A DNA stretch of 64,000 nucleotides from Pseudomonadota bacterium. Its GTDB lineage: Bacteria; Pseudomonadota; Gammaproteobacteria; Steroidobacterales; Steroidobacteraceae. The stretch spans positions 62,001-126,000 of the forward strand of contig JANYAE010000122.1 in the NCBI GenBank assembly GCA_025355105.1, read 5' to 3'. The position numbers and the translations under genes were made by a program. How positions within the stretch are numbered: position 1 is the first letter of the stretch; each line of letters starts with the position of its first letter. Shown here one piece after another: positions 26,453-34,273 of the stretch. Below the pieces are notes generated by a model. That model was not told the DNA's origin. It did no database searches and saw nothing but the letters and a program-made list of their open reading frames with translations.

Positions 26453-27316
26453 TCAGTAGCGCGCCAGCGCGAGGCAGACGATGCCGGCGACGATCGCGGC
26501 GGCGCCGAGCAGCCGCGCCGGCGTCACCGCCTCGCGCAGCAGCCGCGCGCCGAGGTAGGTGCCGACCAGCGTCGCGAGCTCGCGCGCCGGCGCGACGTGG
26601 CTGACGGGCGCGAGCCGCATCGCGAACAGCACGAGGATGTAGGCGAGCGGCGCCAGCGCGCCGATGCCGACGGCCGACCAGAAGTACTGGCGAGCTTCGG
26701 CCCGCAACCGGGCGCGGTCGCTGAGCGCCGTGGGCAGCAGTGCGGTGAAGCGCACCAGGTTGCCGAAGTAGTCGACGATCAGCGGCGAGATCGCCAGCAC
26801 CCGCACCGCCCAGCCGTCGTTCAGCGTGTAGCCGGCGATGCAGGTGCCGGTCAGCAGCCCCCAGCCGACACCGCGCAGGTCGATGCGACGGGCGCGGCCG
26901 ACGAGCCCGGAGACTAGCGTCATGCCGGCCAGCACCAGCGCGAGGCCGAGTACCGAGGCGCTGCTGAACGGATCGCCGAGCAGCAGCACCGCGCCGACGA
27001 ACGACAGCAGCGGCCCGAAGCCGCGTGCGATCGGGTAGACGATCGACAGGTCGGCGGCCCGATAGCCGGACTGCAGCGCGATCGCGTAGGCGAGGTGCAG
27101 CACGCCGGTCGCGGCCAGCGCCAGCCACTGGATCGGCTGGCGCGGCGCGCCCGCCGTGAACAGCACGTAGCCGACCAGCGGTGCCCAGATCAGCATCGAG
27201 GCCACCGAGTAGAGCCAGACGAAGTGCCGCGAGCCGACCGCGCGCTTGGCGATCACGTTCCAGACCGCGTGGATCACCGCCGCGATCAACACTGCCGCAA
27301 GCGCGAGCAGCGGCAT
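26453..27316 (-). CDS. EamA/DMT-family transporter
   Basis: Drug/metabolite transporter superfamily protein of 287 aa with two EamA halves and about ten helices. Visible blocks: VIHAVWNVIAKRAVGSRHFVWLY at the N-terminus, SIVYPIARGFGPLLSFVGAVLLLGD closing the first half, GTCIAGYTLNDGWAVR opening the second, and VAPARELATLVGTYLGARLLRE near the end. Members usually export amino acids or metabolites. It sits between the phosphatase-like gene (29 bp upstream) and the aminotransferase (30 bp downstream) on the same strand, suggesting one operon. Confidence 0.85.
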   Translation of the reverse strand: MPLLALAAVLIAAVIHAVWNVIAKRAVGSRHFVWLYSVASMLIWAPLVGYVLFTAGAPRQPIQWLALAATGVLHLAYAIALQSGYRAADLSIVYPIARGFGPLLSFVGAVLLLGDPFSSASVLGLALVLAGMTLVSGLVGRARRIDLRGVGWGLLTGTCIAGYTLNDGWAVRVLAISPLIVDYFGNLVRFTALLPTALSDRARLRAEARQYFWSAVGIGALAPLAYILVLFAMRLAPVSHVAPARELATLVGTYLGARLLREAVTPARLLGAAAIVAGIVCLALARY

Positions 27317-27345
27317 CGCTCAGCCGCGGGACCGCGTCGCCGCGC

Positions 27346-28494
27346 TCATCGGCCACCGGCCGCGTCGCGCGGCTGAGCATTCGCGCGCGCCGGTGCCGCG
27401 AGCACGGCGGTGACGGGCGCGGCGGCGGCAGGCACGGCGGCGACGAAGTCGCGACCGAGCAAGGCCGCGACGGTCGCCGCCACCTGTGACTGCCTAATCT
27501 CCGGCACGTCGCGCCGTTCGCCGAGCGGCGCGGTGTCCGGACCGATGACCGCCAGCCAGATGTCTTCGGAGCCTGGCTCGGCGACGCCGTGCTCCTGCCA
27601 TTGCACTGCTCCGCTGCCGCGGCCGTGGTCGGCGGTGATGATGAAGGTGGTCCGGTCGCGGTACTGCGGGATCGCCTGCAGCTGCTTCCAGAGCTCGCCG
27701 ACGAAGCGGTCGAAGCTGTGCGCGGTCTCGAGAACGAGGTCGTAGCGCCGCATGTGCGCCCACAAGTCCGTGTCGCCATAGCCGACGAACAGGAGCCGCG
27801 GATGGTGCTGGCGCAGATGCGCGCGCAGCGCGTGCTGCATGAAGGCGTCGAAAGGGTTGCTGCCGTAGAGGTGCGTGGTGGTCGCATAGAGCTCGGCGAA
27901 CAGCCGGCCACCGGCGCTCGGATCGGTGGCATCCGGAAGCGTCGCGCCGACCCGCACCGGCAGGCGACTGCGCGGCGCATTGAAGATGTCGGCAAGCTCG
28001 CTCCAGGTGCCGAACACATCGACGCGGCCGTGAAAGGCGCGCGTGCCGTTCAGCCACTCGAACACCGTGACGTTCGGGTTCGGCCCGAACTCGTTGCCGC
28101 CGATGCGCGGGTCGGCGCGGCCGGTCAGCATCTCGTTGTAGCCCGGATAGGAGACGCGCACGGCGTTGGTGACGCGCACGTGGCTGCCGAGGGCCTGGTT
28201 GCCGTACAGCTGGCCGCGCGTCGCCACCGTGCCCCACAGGAACGGCAACAGCTGCCGGCGCCGCTCGAGCGGGTCCGGGTGGCCGTAGGCCTGTCGCAGC
28301 GCGGCGGGGCTCGTCCAGCTGCCGCCGTGATTGGCGTCGTCGATCAGCAGCGGATCGGCGCCGGTGAAGACTTCCTGCCAGCGCAGCCCGTCGCTCACGA
28401 TCAGCACGACGTTGCGGGTGCGCGCCGGCGCCGCCGGCGCGGCCGCGGCGACGAGGCACAGCAGAAGCAACCCCAGTCGCGGCGGCCGTCTCAC
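27346..28494 (-). CDS. Exported alkaline-phosphatase-superfamily enzyme
   Basis: Metal-dependent hydrolase of the alkaline phosphatase/phosphodiesterase superfamily, about 382 aa, with a signal peptide (RLGLLLLCLVAAAAPAAPA). Metal and nucleophile regions are visible: VVLIVSDGLRWQEVFTGAD (first Asp), VSYPGYNEMLTGR (Thr/Ser nucleophile region), FVGYGDTDLWAH (Asp and His) and TFIITADHGRG (Asp-His). The start is uncertain: GTG at 28494 has GGTGAG upstream, GTG at 28503 is an alternative. Its first 72 bp lie within the 225-bp direct repeat, and the second repeat copy carries the same signal-peptide code fused to an S9 remnant. It heads the minus-strand operon running to 22596. Confidence 0.8.
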   Translation of the reverse strand: MRRPPRLGLLLLCLVAAAAPAAPARTRNVVLIVSDGLRWQEVFTGADPLLIDDANHGGSWTSPAALRQAYGHPDPLERRRQLLPFLWGTVATRGQLYGNQALGSHVRVTNAVRVSYPGYNEMLTGRADPRIGGNEFGPNPNVTVFEWLNGTRAFHGRVDVFGTWSELADIFNAPRSRLPVRVGATLPDATDPSAGGRLFAELYATTTHLYGSNPFDAFMQHALRAHLRQHHPRLLFVGYGDTDLWAHMRRYDLVLETAHSFDRFVGELWKQLQAIPQYRDRTTFIITADHGRGSGAVQWQEHGVAEPGSEDIWLAVIGPDTAPLGERRDVPEIRQSQVAATVAALLGRDFVAAVPAAAAPVTAVLAAPARANAQPRDAAGGR

Positions 28495-28647
28495 CGATCT
28501 CACCCCGTGTCGCGTTTCGCCGCAGAGCTTAACAGGACGTCGGCGGCGCCCGGCGCGACCCGGCCCGCCGTGCGGTCGCATCGCGCACCGCCGATCGGTG
28601 GGGATTCGCGCTACGAGAACGAACCTGGGGACGTTGGGATGCGGCGG
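28423..28647 (+). repeat. 225-bp direct repeat, copy 1
   Basis: Matches 31170-31394 with no gaps and 11 mismatches by hand count (about 95%). It spans the 5' end of the phosphatase gene, its upstream region, and a start-like ATGCGGCGG that corresponds to the first codons of the S9 peptidase at copy 2. Here the peptidase reading frame is lost after three codons. Confidence 0.93.
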
Positions 28648-28753
28648 GCCCGCGCAGGAGATGCGCAGAGTGGGCGCCGAGACACTCCTGCCGTGCCCTG
28701 AACTGTGTCATTCGCCGCTAGGTCTCGGCCCCGGCTGGAGACGCGTGCCGGCT

Positions 28754-29266
28754 TCAGCCCCGGCCCGGAAGGCGCAGGAACCACCAGGTGTCGCGCTCGG
28801 TCGTGAACTGACGTTTCAGGCGACGCACGAGCGCGGCCGATCGTTTCCAATACGGGCCCTGGATGCTGATTTCGCCAATGCCCGTGACGCCGGCGTCAGC
28901 CAATCGCCGCGCACGCGCGTCCACCATGGCGCTCCCGAAACCGCGACCTCGATATTGAGAATCGAACCACCAGGCGACGTCGTGAGCATACGGCGGACCG
29001 CCGTGGTAGATCGCGCCGATCGCCGTCGACTCGAGCCGTACGGCGAGCCGCATCGACTGGCACCGCGGTTGGTTCCAGACGTGCGGTGGACCCTCGTCGT
29101 TCAGGTGTTGCGGCAACGACACTCGCGCGCCAAGCTTGGCTGCCTGTTCCGACGACAGACCCAGCTTCGGGACGATCGACAGTCGAAGGAGCGGAACCGG
29201 CGGGGCACCCGTTTCGATCCAATCCACGTATGGCGGATTTTGGGATGAGGCGAAGCGTTGAAGCAC
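28754..29266 (-). CDS. GNAT-family N-acetyltransferase
   Basis: Putative acetyltransferase of about 170 aa. The acetyl-CoA-binding region reads VAWWFDSQYRGRGFGSAMVDARARRLADAG, containing the (Q/R)xxGxG/A-type motif A (QYRGRGFG) after a typical beta-4 strand; the following EISIQGPYWKRSAALVRRLKRQF fits motif B and its Tyr. The acceptor substrate is unknown. The assigned start is a GTG with no good ribosome site, so the true N-terminus may be internal. It lies within the repeat-bounded islet. Confidence 0.62.
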   Translation of the reverse strand: MLQRFASSQNPPYVDWIETGAPPVPLLRLSIVPKLGLSSEQAAKLGARVSLPQHLNDEGPPHVWNQPRCQSMRLAVRLESTAIGAIYHGGPPYAHDVAWWFDSQYRGRGFGSAMVDARARRLADAGVTGIGEISIQGPYWKRSAALVRRLKRQFTTERDTWWFLRLPGRG

Positions 29267-29911
29267 GGCGTCACCGGCCGGGCAGACTGGGACTCAGGCA
29301 ACTGACGAAAACGCCAGCCCGCACTCGCCGTCGTCGGGGGGGAAGATCGGCGAGCCGGGTGGCTAGGAAGGGACCGCCCAGATGAGGGGTTGGCGATCCC
29401 GGGGCAGCAGCCTACCCGCGCGGCATGAAGGACCGATGTCGGAACGATTGCGCATTCACGTGGCGAAGGCGTGCCGAGCATGCCGATGATGCCGCGAGCC
29501 CGGTGTCGCAGTTGCTGGCCCTCTCCGCGGCTGCGGCGGCCGGGGCCGGTCGCCGCAGCGCGCGGGGGCGGATCGCGGGCAACCCGACAGGGAGTGCTCG
29601 CAACGTACCGTGGAGGCACGTGGACTGCGCGAGGTAGCGCGTGCCGGACTCTCGCACCTGCTTGTGAACGCATGACGGCAGCTGGATGGCGGCCTGCCGA
29701 ACGGCTGATGACAGCGGGGTATTGGCCGCGACGACGCTCGGCGTGTGCCGAGCGTTGCGGGCCGGCGGCGACGCCGCTGTGAGGCGGAGCCAACCCGAGC
29801 AGTTCCCGGTCATCGCGCCGGGCCGGTCTCGTGGCAAGCAGTGCCGGAATGTCCCGGCGTCAGAGTCCCGCCGCTCCACCACCACGGCGCCATGACGGGA
29901 AGCGTGGCCTG
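29267..29911. other. Gene-poor stretch inside the islet
   Basis: About 645 bp between the GNAT and DUF1345 genes. Open frames exist on both strands, but their translations are Arg/Pro/Ala-rich low-complexity strings with no recognisable domain and no good ribosome sites. I see no RNA gene or repeat here; it is probably decayed DNA. Confidence 0.5.
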
Positions 29912-30583
29912 CTACAACAGGCTCGCGCCGATGTTGATCAGTAGCGCGAGCACCGTCGTATTGAAGAAGTAGGCGAGAATGCAATGCAGCGACCCGATGC
30001 GACGCATGGACTTTGAGACGTACGACACGTCCGCCGTCTGCCCCGAGGTGCCGACGATTGCCGCGGCGTAGAAGAAATCGCCGTAGTCCGGTTCCTCGCC
30101 GCCCGGGAACTGCAGGCCGGCGGCGCGTCCATGACAGACGGCGGCGTAGTACTGATGCGCGTAGTGGAGTGCGAACATGACCTGGACGAAGGCCCAGGAC
30201 GTCAGCACCGTCATGCCTGCCAGCGCGATGTGAGCGGTCTTTAGAAAGCCATGCGTGTCCTTGACGACCGCGAGCTCGCCGGCTATGGCCGCGAGGCTCG
30301 CGACGGACGCGACGCTTGCGAGGACGAGGATCGCGACCTGACCGTCATCCTGCAGCTGCGCCCGGCGGCGCATGTGATGGTGCGATGAGCGCAGCATCAT
30401 GATGGCCGCCAGCACGACGTACAGGTCGGCGCCGGCGTTCCACGCGATCAGTGCGCGGGTCACCAAATGACCGGCCACGCTCACCGGCAGCAGAACGCCG
30501 ACGGCCAACGCGACGACCGTCGCGATGAACAGGCGCGGCCGCGCGCGGATCTGACGAAGCAATCTGAAACGCTGCCAGCTCAT
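29912..30583 (-). CDS. DUF1345 family membrane protein
   Basis: Integral membrane protein of 223 aa matching the DUF1345 pattern: about six hydrophobic segments, a central FALHYAHQYY, then LQFPGGEEPDYGDFFYAAAIVGTSGQTADVSYVSKSMRR-type conserved block (read in pieces: FPGGEEPDYGDFFY, GQTADVSYVSKSMRRI) and a final FFNTTVLALLINIGASLL helix. The biochemical role of the family is unknown. Length is normal for the family and the gene looks intact, unlike its downstream neighbour in the islet. Confidence 0.82.
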   Translation of the reverse strand: MSWQRFRLLRQIRARPRLFIATVVALAVGVLLPVSVAGHLVTRALIAWNAGADLYVVLAAIMMLRSSHHHMRRRAQLQDDGQVAILVLASVASVASLAAIAGELAVVKDTHGFLKTAHIALAGMTVLTSWAFVQVMFALHYAHQYYAAVCHGRAAGLQFPGGEEPDYGDFFYAAAIVGTSGQTADVSYVSKSMRRIGSLHCILAYFFNTTVLALLINIGASLL

Positions 30584-30706
30584 ATTGAAGGTTCCGTCTC
30601 GTCATGGAGGGCGATTCACTGCCACGTGGTGAGCGATGCGCCGAAAGACCCGAGCGCGGCCCCGGCCGCGCGGCGCATCGCGCCGGCGAGTATCTTGGGG
30701 CGCGCG

Positions 30707-31169
30707 TTACAAATGATCTCGCAGGAACGATTCGAGCGCCTTTGGCGCCCAAACGCGCGTATCGGTACGCGATAGCCAGTAGTCTGGAGCAGGCAACGTC
30801 ATGACCGTGACGTCCTTGTGGGCGGCCCGCAGTTCACACGCCATTTGCTCGTACTGAGATTTGGGTACGACAGCTTCAGCCATTCCATAGAAGGACTAGC
30901 ACCTGCGCCTTGATCGGCTTGACCGCAATGACCTGCAAACCTAGTGCGAGCTTTCGGTCGTTGGGCGAACCCACGTGCTGGTCCCAGTACGCGAGAGCAG
31001 TCGACTCCGCGCCGGACAGAACCGGAAGCGTGTCTGGCAGCCCGGCAGGTATATCCGATATCCCTTCGAGGCACACGGCGCAGGCATAGCGATCGGCCAT
31101 GAACGCGGCCCCTGGGAGCGCCACGTAACCTGCGTGTACGACATCCGTCTCGACTTGCATGGTCGCAAA
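30707..31169 (-). pseudogene. C-terminal remnant of an S9-family peptidase, frameshifted
   Basis: Minus-strand sequence reads as the last part of a prolyl-oligopeptidase-type hydrolase. One frame gives AGYVALPGAAFMADRYACAV, GISDIPAG, LAYWDQHVGSPND and VKPIKAQVLV; near 30890 it must shift to a second frame giving FYGMAEAVVPKSQYEQMACE, KDVTVMTLPAPDYWLSRTDT and ESFLRDHL before TAA (30707-30709). This matches the family's GGYAALAGAAF...RYxCAV...YWxxHxGDP...IKAPVLLxHGxxDxVVP...DHWLS order. The nucleophile Ser of GxSYGGY is absent (DVVHAGY) and the catalytic His region reads DYWLS. At its 5' side it is joined in frame to the signal-peptide code of the phosphatase within repeat copy 2. It is not the same lineage as the intact S9 gene next door. 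Confidence 0.7.
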
Positions 31170-31394
31170 CGCCGGCGCCGCCGGTGCGGCCGCGGCGAGG
31201 AGGCACAGCAAAAGCAACCCCAGTCGCGGCAGCCGTCTCACCGATCTCACCCCGTGTCGCGTTTCGCCGCAGAGCTTAACAGGACGTCGGCGGCGCCCGG
31301 CGCGACCCGGCCCGCCGTGTGGTTGCATCACGCACCGCCGATCGGTGAGGATTCGCGCTACAAGAACGAACCTGGGGACATTGGGATGCGCCGG
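31170..31394 (+). repeat. 225-bp direct repeat, copy 2
   Basis: Second copy of the sequence at 28423-28647 (offset 2747 bp, no gaps). Its right end contains the start codon and first codons of the intact S9 peptidase gene; its left end contains a minus-strand signal-peptide code derived from the phosphatase gene, now fused to the S9 remnant. Confidence 0.93.
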
Positions 31395-33386
31395 ATCGCA
31401 CTCGCTTCGCTCACGCTCACGCTCACGCTCGCGGTCATCGGCGCGGCGCCGGCACTCGGCGATGCGCCGCCGGGCTTCGACGCCGCCGCGGCCTTTGGCT
31501 CGCGGCCGAACGTCGCGGACCTGCGCCTGTCGCCGGACGGCCAGTCGGTGGCGTACCTGTCGCCGACCAAGGGGCAGGGATCGGCGCTCTACACGCTGTC
31601 GCTTGCCAAGGGCGCGAAGCCGCAGATCGCGCTGCTGGCCGACGGCACGCCTGACCGGATCAACGACTGCAACTGGGTCTCCAACGACCGGCTGGTGTGC
31701 ATGGTCTACGCGATCATCCGCGAGCCGGCCTTGCTGACCCTGCAGTACGTCACGCGGCTGCTCGCGATCGACGTGAACGGCAAGAACGCAAAGCTGCTCG
31801 CCAAGCGCACCAACGGCTATAGCCGCGGCCTGATGTTCGGCGACGGCTCGATCATCGACTGGCTGCCTGACCAGGATGGCGCGGTGCTCATGAGCCGCGT
31901 CACGCTCGCGGACGACCATATCGGCAGCCGGCTCGGGTCGGACAACGAAGGACTTGGCGTCGACCTAATCGACACGCGCACGCTCGCGTCGAAGACTGTC
32001 GAGGAGCCGAACCGCCTGGCGGAGGGCTACATCAGCGATGGCCGCGGCACGGTGCGCATCATGGCGATGCGCACGATGGCAGGCTCCGGCTACAGCTCGG
32101 GGATCAGGAGCTTTCTTTACCGGCGCAAGGGCAGCCGGCAGTGGGCGTCGCTCAGTTCCTACGATGACGTCCATCGCGAGGGCTTCGAGCCGGTGGCCGT
32201 CGATCCGGAGCTCGACGTCGCCTTCGGTTTCAAAAAGTTGGACGGCCGGCTCGCGCTCTACTCGGTGGCGCTGGATGGCTCGCTGCGCGAGACGCTGATC
32301 TATTCCCGCGAGGACGTCGACATCGACCACCTGGTGCGGATCGGCCGGCGGCAGCGGGTCGTCGGCGCCTCGTATGCGACCGACTACCGCTCGACGTATT
32401 TCCTCGATCCGGCGATCGAGAAGCTGTCCGGCGCGATCTCGAGGGCGCTGTCGAGCCATCCGAACCTTCGCATCGCGGACTCCAGCGTCGACGAAAGCAA
32501 GCTGCTGATCTTTGCCGGCAGTGACAACGACGCCGGCGTCTACTACCTGTTCGACCGAACGGCGCGACAGCTGGATACCTTTCTGGTCGCGCGCAGCGCG
32601 CTCGAGAACGTCAAGCTCGCCAACGTCACGCCGATCAGCTACCCGGCCGCCGACGGCACGCAGGTGCCAGGCTACCTGACGCTGCCGCCCGGCGCCGCGA
32701 GCGCCAAGTCGCTGCCGGCGATCGTCATGCCGCACGGCGGTCCCGGCGCGCGCGACGTGTGGGGCTTCAACTACCTCGCGCAGTTCTTCGCCGCGCGCGG
32801 CTTCGCGGTGCTGCAGCCGAACTTCCGCGGCTCGGCAGGCTACGGCGACGGCTGGTTCCAGACCAATGGCTTTCGCTCCTGGCCGATCGCGATCGGCGAC
32901 GTGCTCGACGGCGGGCGCTGGCTAGTGTCGCAGGGTATTGCCGATCCTGCGAGGCTCGCGGCCGTCGGCTGGTCCTACGGCGGCTACGCGGCGCTGCAAG
33001 CCGCGGTCGCGGACGCCTCGGTGTTCAAGGCGGTGGTCGCCATCGCGCCGGTCACGGACCTCGTCGACCTCAAGGAGCGCTACCGGCGCTGGTCGAATTT
33101 CTACCTGGCGGCGGACTATATCGGCGAGGGGCAGCCGGCGATCGACGGCTCGCCGGCGCGCAATGCCTCGAAGATCAAGGTGCCGGTGCTGCTGTTTCAC
33201 GGTGCCGACGACATCAACGTCGACTACGCGCAGTCGCGGCTGATGGACAAGAGTCTCGCCGCCGCGGGCGCGCGGCACGAGCTCGTGACCTTCGAGCACC
33301 TGGACCACCAGCTCGAGGACTCGGCGGCCCGTACCGAACTGCTGCGTCGAAGCGACGCCTTCCTGCGACAGGCGTTCGGGCTCTAG
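31386..33386 (+). CDS. S9-family peptidase (prolyl oligopeptidase/acylaminoacyl-peptidase type), exported
   Basis: Serine peptidase of 666 aa with a signal peptide (MRRIALASLTLTLTLAVIGAAPALG), a beta-propeller-like region (about 30-410) and a C-terminal alpha/beta hydrolase domain. MPHGGPGARDVWGFNY holds the oxyanion region, GWSYGGYAAL the nucleophile (Ser530), HGADDINV the acidic residue (Asp608/609) and EHLDHQL the catalytic His (about 641). It probably trims peptides in the periplasm. The ATG follows GGGG eight bases upstream. The signal-peptide codons contain a short CTCACG tandem repeat. The upstream region and first codons belong to repeat copy 2. Confidence 0.88.
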   Translation: MRRIALASLTLTLTLAVIGAAPALGDAPPGFDAAAAFGSRPNVADLRLSPDGQSVAYLSPTKGQGSALYTLSLAKGAKPQIALLADGTPDRINDCNWVSNDRLVCMVYAIIREPALLTLQYVTRLLAIDVNGKNAKLLAKRTNGYSRGLMFGDGSIIDWLPDQDGAVLMSRVTLADDHIGSRLGSDNEGLGVDLIDTRTLASKTVEEPNRLAEGYISDGRGTVRIMAMRTMAGSGYSSGIRSFLYRRKGSRQWASLSSYDDVHREGFEPVAVDPELDVAFGFKKLDGRLALYSVALDGSLRETLIYSREDVDIDHLVRIGRRQRVVGASYATDYRSTYFLDPAIEKLSGAISRALSSHPNLRIADSSVDESKLLIFAGSDNDAGVYYLFDRTARQLDTFLVARSALENVKLANVTPISYPAADGTQVPGYLTLPPGAASAKSLPAIVMPHGGPGARDVWGFNYLAQFFAARGFAVLQPNFRGSAGYGDGWFQTNGFRSWPIAIGDVLDGGRWLVSQGIADPARLAAVGWSYGGYAALQAAVADASVFKAVVAIAPVTDLVDLKERYRRWSNFYLAADYIGEGQPAIDGSPARNASKIKVPVLLFHGADDINVDYAQSRLMDKSLAAAGARHELVTFEHLDHQLEDSAARTELLRRSDAFLRQAFGL

Positions 33387-33464
33387 GATTAGCGCCACCG
33401 GCGGCGGCCGGGTCGGCGGCGCGACAAAGGTCCGCCTCGGGACCGCTCAAGGAGCGATCTCAGA

Positions 33465-33484
33465 GCCAGGCCGGTCGGCCTGGC
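33465..33484. terminator. Hairpin between convergent genes
   Basis: Perfect 8-bp stem (GCCAGGCC with GGCCTGGC) and a GGTC loop, lying between the stop of the S9 peptidase and the stop of the convergent Hcp-like gene. No T-run on either side, so terminator function is only suggested by position. Confidence 0.35.
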
Positions 33485-33502
33485 CCCGCGCCACGTGGTC
33501 CG

Positions 33503-34039
33503 TCAGTTGAACGCGCTGCAGTCGACGATTGCAGTGAGCGCCGCGCCGCGCGAGCCGTCCGGCAACTGCGGCCAGTAGGTCACATCGACCCGGGGCGCCG
33601 TCACCGACAGAGTCTCGACGCGCGCGGATGTCGAGCTGTCGCCGCCGAACGTCACCGACGAGATCAGCGCGTTGTGAAGTGCGAACTTCAGGAACGTGAT
33701 CGGCCGGTCGCTGGAGGCGACCGCGACAAGATCGATTTCGTGGAACACCTGCCCGGTCGCGACCGCGGCGGTGATGGCCGGGCTCGAGCTGTCGAGCTGC
33801 TTGACGACCTGCAGCGCTTGGCATACGAGCCGACCAGCCGCTCGGCCCGCTCCGCCGCTGCCGGCGCGGCCGGAGGTCATGAACCCTTCCGAAAAGGACG
33901 TCACCGGGATCCAGTCGACGTAGGTCTTGTCGAGGGATTCGCCCTTGATGCCGGGGATTTGCATGTAGAAGGTCTCGGTACCCGCCTGCGCGCTCAGCGA
34001 GAGCAGCAAGGTGCCGATGAGGATTCCGATCGAGCGCAT
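33503..34039 (-). CDS. Hcp-like protein with signal peptide
   Basis: Protein of 178 aa resembling Hcp, the ring-forming tube protein of type VI secretion: FYMQIPGIKGESLDKTYVDWIPV at the N-terminus, a central VVKQLDSSSPAIT, and FLKFALHNALISSVTFGG are family patterns. Unlike canonical Hcp it starts with a cleavable signal peptide (MRSIGILIGTLLLSLSAQAG), so it should enter the periplasm through Sec. No other type VI genes are in the window. The start is the ATG preceded by GGAGG at nine bases; the longer frame is rejected because it would bury the signal peptide. Confidence 0.78.
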   Translation of the reverse strand: MRSIGILIGTLLLSLSAQAGTETFYMQIPGIKGESLDKTYVDWIPVTSFSEGFMTSGRAGSGGAGRAAGRLVCQALQVVKQLDSSSPAITAAVATGQVFHEIDLVAVASSDRPITFLKFALHNALISSVTFGGDSSTSARVETLSVTAPRVDVTYWPQLPDGSRGAALTAIVDCSAFN

Positions 34040-34273
34040 GGTTGCCAACCTCCGTTGTGGCAGGGGGGGCGTCGAGGCGCCTTCAGGGCGCATCGCTTCG
34101 ACGGCAACGTATGCGGGCGCCGGCTGGACGGCGTGTGCGCGCGTCTGGATTTGACACAATCGAGGCGCCGCGCTGGTCGGAAACGTGCGCTCGGTCACAC
34201 GGCGGGGCGTATGCGGACGGCGTTCTCGGGATCGAAGTTGTCGACGGAGCCCTGCCGAAGGCGCGACGCCGCG

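Follow-up and report, generated by a model that had tools for sequence, protein, structure and literature searches.

Insertions flanked by copies of their target

In the accessible portions of the literature on this class, the term 'insertion with long target duplication' is credited to Nobusato et al. 2000 for Helicobacter pylori, and such insertions are described as often carrying restriction-modification genes, although these are not required (PMC1643837, PMC3154945, PMC3031569, PMC4978471, PMC3874152). In Arabidopsis, the available part of one study reports transposed non-transposon genes that are flanked by direct repeats homologous to the orthologous empty site (PMC2869330).

The locus described here lies in a window of 64,000 nucleotides (G000:C116:62001-126000) from a genome of 4.33 Mb that is assembled in 142 contigs and is 91% complete. 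The host lineage is probably Steroidobacteraceae, and the best contig matches of the S9 peptidase discussed below include, among the matches listed, Steroidobacteraceae and other gammaproteobacterial metagenome assemblies. The pattern in the window fits an insertion with long target duplication that lacks restriction-modification genes: the insert is absent from G010, a genome of the same genus, the flanking repeats are of the order of 100 bp (225 bp), and the corresponding site in G010 has no direct repeat of 30 bp or more. As with the H. pylori insertions in the accessible text of two of these reports (PMC1643837, PMC3031569), the segment is an insert relative to a related genome and has long direct copies of the target on either side. 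The locus differs from the H. pylori class in that it is found in another bacterium, has a repeat of 225 bp and encodes no restriction-modification gene among the scanned ORFs; moreover, its copies are already 5% apart, and the comparison made here is between distant species and not between strains. Flanking direct repeats homologous to the sequence of an empty site are also shared with the transposed genes of Arabidopsis, a eukaryote; in the available part of that study parent sites are identified for some genes, whereas no donor site was found here (PMC2869330). Composite transposons and integrase-driven genomic islands likewise have direct repeats around a gene-bearing segment but, unlike these, the insert has no transposase or integrase among its scanned ORFs and no terminal inverted repeats.

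Structure of the duplicated locus

The features of the locus are as follows.

27346..28503, minus strand: sulfatase/phosphodiesterase/metalloenzyme superfamily protein (hereafter phosphatase), complete, on the left of the divergent pair; assigned from three Pfam matches that are weak and close to the cut-offs, with a counterpart in G010
28423..28647, no strand: left repeat copy, with codons 1 to 27 of the phosphatase (28423-28503, minus strand), 135 bp of intergenic sequence and the ATG and two further codons of the peptidase (28639-28647)
28648..31169, no strand: insert between the copies, 2,522 bp, without a counterpart between the pair in G010
28754..29266, minus strand: open frame with a GNAT acetyltransferase domain, left out by the codon-usage gene caller
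29267..29911, no strand: gene-free stretch of 645 bp, with no called genes and no family matches for the scanned ORFs
29912..30583, minus strand: intact DUF1345 gene, the sole copy found in this genome
30710..31136, minus strand: C-terminal remnant of an S9-like peptidase, frame broken near 30880
31170..31394, no strand: right repeat copy, with the S9 peptidase ATG at 31386
31386..33386, plus strand: complete S9 peptidase of 666 aa with a counterpart in G010, right member of the pair

A repeat search of the window returned exactly these two copies (225 nt, 95%, start-to-start distance 2747), and direct comparison of the two agrees with the near-identical direct repeats described in the initial annotation, with 214 of 225 positions matching, 11 mismatches and no gaps. 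The copies have diverged by 4.9%, both ends of the identity are abrupt, and the copies agree over at most 88 consecutive bp (left copy, 28485-28572). From base composition alone, about 10^-89.5 pairs of this kind would be expected in 64 kb. In a genome sample of 366 kb (approximately 8%), no other pair reaches both 80 bp and 90% identity once a 501-bp overlap between two of the sampled stretches is set aside, and four other repeat pairs were seen at 82-84%. A whole-genome search with 28300-31500 returned no third full copy; besides the self-match there were three short partial matches, one of which (38 bp, 87%) touches the repeat, so that the genome holds two full copies.

By manual reading of the start codons, each copy is inferred to consist of 81 coding bp of the phosphatase, 135 intergenic bp and 9 coding bp of the peptidase. 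This reading takes a GTG at 28503 as the inferred phosphatase start in the left copy and ATG codons at 28639 and 31386 as the peptidase starts; an upstream in-frame ATG as the alternative phosphatase start would reduce the intergenic gap to 57 bp. Each copy therefore carries the 5' region common to the pair, as had been claimed, with the left copy heading the complete phosphatase and the right copy heading the complete peptidase, which carries the serine motif GWSYGGY. Since the starts of both genes are present in each copy, the gene pair must predate the duplication. As far as can be read from the DNA, an upstream region that was once common to both genes now appears as one copy per gene, and both the phosphatase and the peptidase are open and complete. 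Directly downstream of the peptidase and on the opposite strand lies a gene for an Hcp-like protein (33503-34198; Pfam T6SS_HCP, 6.7e-23).

The differences between the copies are polarized. All nine GC-changing differences have G or C in the left copy and A or T in the right copy (sign test approximately 0.004, calculated by hand and post hoc). Such polarity would not be expected if both copies had started out equal and diverged in parallel, and it is predicted by none of the origins considered below, whether one event, a circle crossover, or duplication and decay.

The empty site in a related genome

The initial annotation pointed to relatives as the place to look for an unduplicated junction, and one is present in G010, the only examined relative that has the pair. 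In this genome (locus L035), an amino-acid permease, an aminotransferase, EamA, the phosphatase and the divergent S9 peptidase follow in identical order, and the called starts of the pair are approximately 136 bp apart without an insert. The structure in the window and the absence of the insert from this one relative are direct observations. At the G010 junction there are no direct repeats of at least 30 bp, and the intergenic core is too diverged for a good alignment. G010 is a distant relative, with an S9 peptidase identity of 61%, and an attempt to polarize the 11 copy differences against it failed because of the poor intergenic alignment. Since the two copies are only 4.9% apart while the intergenic regions of the two genomes align poorly, the duplication seems to postdate the separation of these genomes.

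The inference of an empty site is drawn from G010 as the one relative available. In a survey of the family that took in no more than 1.5 kb either side of the peptidase, 27 of 217 genomes had strong S9 matches (29 in total), and a neighbouring phosphatase was seen only in G010. When the best 80 S9 loci listed were inspected with up to 7 kb per side, a phosphatase neighbour was again found only at L144, on a contig as long as that of G010, leaving G010 as the only relative found with the pair, and three of these loci had any match other than S9. A relative with both repeat copies and ancestral genes throughout, the configuration that would contradict an insertion, was not found, one relative with the pair having been compared. 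G012 has the phosphatase, EamA, the aminotransferase and the permease in the same order as the window and was considered as a second empty site; it was rejected because a different S9 peptidase tail lies upstream of the phosphatase on the same strand. This tail, located just upstream of the phosphatase at a contig end (G012:C230, L040 1-1723), takes the place that the divergent S9 peptidase has in the window and in G010. It is weakly related to the S9 peptidase of the window and not clearly related to the peptidase remnant of the insert. In G005, the 2.6 kb upstream of the S9 peptidase are without a gene according to a simple gene caller (G005:C173, L038 1-2594).

Content of the insert

The initial annotation described the content between the repeats as foreign-looking. 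This description holds for the GNAT frame and the broken peptidase tail, both of which do look out of place; it does not hold for the DUF1345 gene, which is of the genus's own family and shows typical divergence. The insert is a chimeric patchwork rather than simply foreign. Its GC content of 66.2% is below that of the adjoining 10-kb stretches (72.1% and 70.7%) without being an outlier: in the 366-kb sample, 6.9% of the 260 windows of the insert's size are equally low.

The GNAT frame has a GC3 of 0.741, which is lower than that of all 271 called genes in the 366-kb sample; this comparison is indicative only, as the caller favours high GC3. At 1e-5 the frame matched nothing outside its own genome in two samples, one of the order (396 genomes) and one of the phylum (398 genomes), both of which include that genome; among 40 relatives there was one other match, at the level of the domain (3e-4). 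The frame is either a very divergent acquisition or a non-working gene. The remnant on the other side of the DUF1345 gene is labelled S9-like from its matches to long S9-like frames; it has no Pfam matches of its own, its best match (50%) is in G004, and by eye the serine motif GWSYGGY of the intact peptidase is missing. Its frame runs across the joint at 31169/31170, in frame from the duplicated phosphatase signal peptide.

For DUF1345, matches at 1e-25 are present in 55 of 217 genomes of the family and in 8 of 15 of the genus, the own genome being counted. The identity of the protein to those of G004, G005 and G008 is 73.5-77.1%, compared with 61.7-82.7% for four other genes. DUF1345 is thus a member of the genus's own family that has diverged about as much as other genes. 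Its GC3 of 0.852 is below that of 97% of the sampled genes and counts against a purely native reading; that of the G004 orthologue is lower still (0.834). No second copy of either the GNAT frame or DUF1345 was found in the genome at the thresholds used. The DUF1345 tree leaves 14 of its 27 inner branches open and requires three changes among the rows of the genus.

In six of the eight genus genomes that have DUF1345, the gene lies beside a fatty-acid hydroxylase gene, the exceptions being the genome studied here and G011. The hydroxylase gene of the present genome is on contig C58, without DUF1345, and adjoins an Xre/RES toxin-antitoxin pair (L109 6473-8515). A recent jump of DUF1345 from the hydroxylase neighbourhood was considered and is weakened by G010, in which the hydroxylase gene is present and no DUF1345 is found at 1e-25. 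As a small neighbour gene of the hydroxylase in G010 is also the same as in the present genome, the separation of DUF1345 from the hydroxylase gene looks older than the insertion. The DUF1345 gene in the insert is then either a relocated resident or a gene that possibly returned by transfer within the genus.

Search for features of mobile elements

That no recombinase is visible in this segment had been noted before, and the family searches concur: neither a recombinase or transposase nor restriction-modification genes were found among the selected insert ORFs scanned with Pfam, PADLOC, PHROGs and NCBIfam. The family matches of these ORFs are to GNAT and DUF1345 only; the single PHROGs match, a weak one, links the GNAT frame with a family of acetyltransferases. 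A terminal inverted repeat was not detected in 100 bp per end (score 12, compared with a shuffle mean of 15.2), and a search of 27300-33500 against Rfam at E 0.1, which covers tRNAs, gave no match. No promoter was predicted, and the single terminator-like site predicted is fewer than in shuffles.

Among phage DNA records there were no matches to the insert, and plasmid DNA records gave one, to the DUF1345 gene of Ideonella at 67.5%. At the protein level, DUF1345 matched 101 plasmid records, all below 60% identity. No plasmid or phage record holding the insert was found, the acetyltransferase also having been searched in the plasmid and viral sets. A mobile element was therefore rejected as an explanation, the family, Rfam, plasmid, phage and inverted-repeat searches having returned only the weak PHROGs acetyltransferase match and DUF1345 on plasmids.

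Possible origins of the insert and the duplication

By whatever route it arose, the locus is very probably an insertion with target duplication. The explanation that we consider best overall, and reasonably likely, is that a chimeric fragment became joined into the 5' region of the pair, with duplication of 225 bp. The pair with its common 5' region would have existed first in the lineage of this genome. A fragment of 2,522 bp, bearing the acetyltransferase frame, DUF1345 and the S9-like tail, would then have been joined into that 5' region, leaving 225 bp of the target on both sides. This could have come about if replication switched to another template and returned 225 bp upstream, or if the fragment was captured while a break whose ends were staggered by 225 bases was being repaired. 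As a result, each gene would have a private upstream copy, and the spare leftward signal peptide would lead into the broken peptidase tail. Whether one illegitimate event made both insert and duplication is close to an even call, leaning slightly towards such an event; it is the simplest account, as a single event explains both joints together with the duplication. No Ku gene was found in the 91%-complete genome, which makes classical end joining less likely.

The initial annotation read the locus as the footprint of either the integration of a circle or duplication and decay. The duplicated flanks around an insert are borne out, and a circle is one of several routes to them. In a Campbell-type single crossover, a circle carrying the 225-bp segment and the 2,522-bp insert would have recombined with the chromosomal copy of the segment. 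The geometry fits, with direct repeats at both ends and complete genes outside, a donor diverged by 5% would account for the differences between the copies, and a circle model has been suggested, in the available part of the Arabidopsis study, for transposed genes with flanking repeats (PMC2869330). The circle would, however, need a 225-bp segment already placed between two unrelated joints, and, had the donor differed in GC and the crossover fallen within the core of 88 identical bp, the polarity would switch between the halves of the copies, which is not observed. Moreover, no plasmid or phage record was found with the insert or with the segment joined to it, and we regard this origin as unlikely.

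A longer tandem duplication, whose inner copies of the phosphatase and the peptidase were then lost, is more doubtful still and would be rather improbable. The junction in G010, although that of a distant relative, leans against it. The families concerned are rich in paralogues, another phosphatase being encoded on G000:C88, and a decayed S9-like tail does adjoin the right copy. This tail is, however, only distantly related, its closest match being the one in G004, and it lies on the strand opposite to that expected for the peptidase; the identity of the copies ends abruptly, no inner phosphatase or peptidase remnant extends beyond the repeats, and the GNAT frame and DUF1345 lack second copies at the thresholds used. 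An assembly artefact, in which strains or two loci were misjoined through the common repeat, might be suspected in an assembly of this many contigs and is very improbable, because the longest exact stretch common to the copies is shorter than the usual read of 150 bases (a general figure that may not apply to the reads of this assembly), and because a misjoin through the repeat would still require two real copies of the segment. The insertion could also be older and have been lost again from G010 when its repeats recombined; the only points against this history are parsimony and the fact that the copies are still 95% identical.

If the joining of a chimeric fragment into the 5' region of the pair is right, the locus would be an example, from a bacterium other than Helicobacter, of an insertion with long target duplication that carries no restriction-modification genes. 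It would show a gene of the genus's own family reaching a new locus without a transposase and a common divergent promoter split into two private ones, which would not in itself decide the mechanism. There is a slight chance that the islet may still excise, recombination between the 225-bp copies restoring a single divergent promoter. Excision would then switch the pair between coupled and uncoupled states without a dedicated recombinase, and the excised circle would remove the only DUF1345 gene found in the genome.
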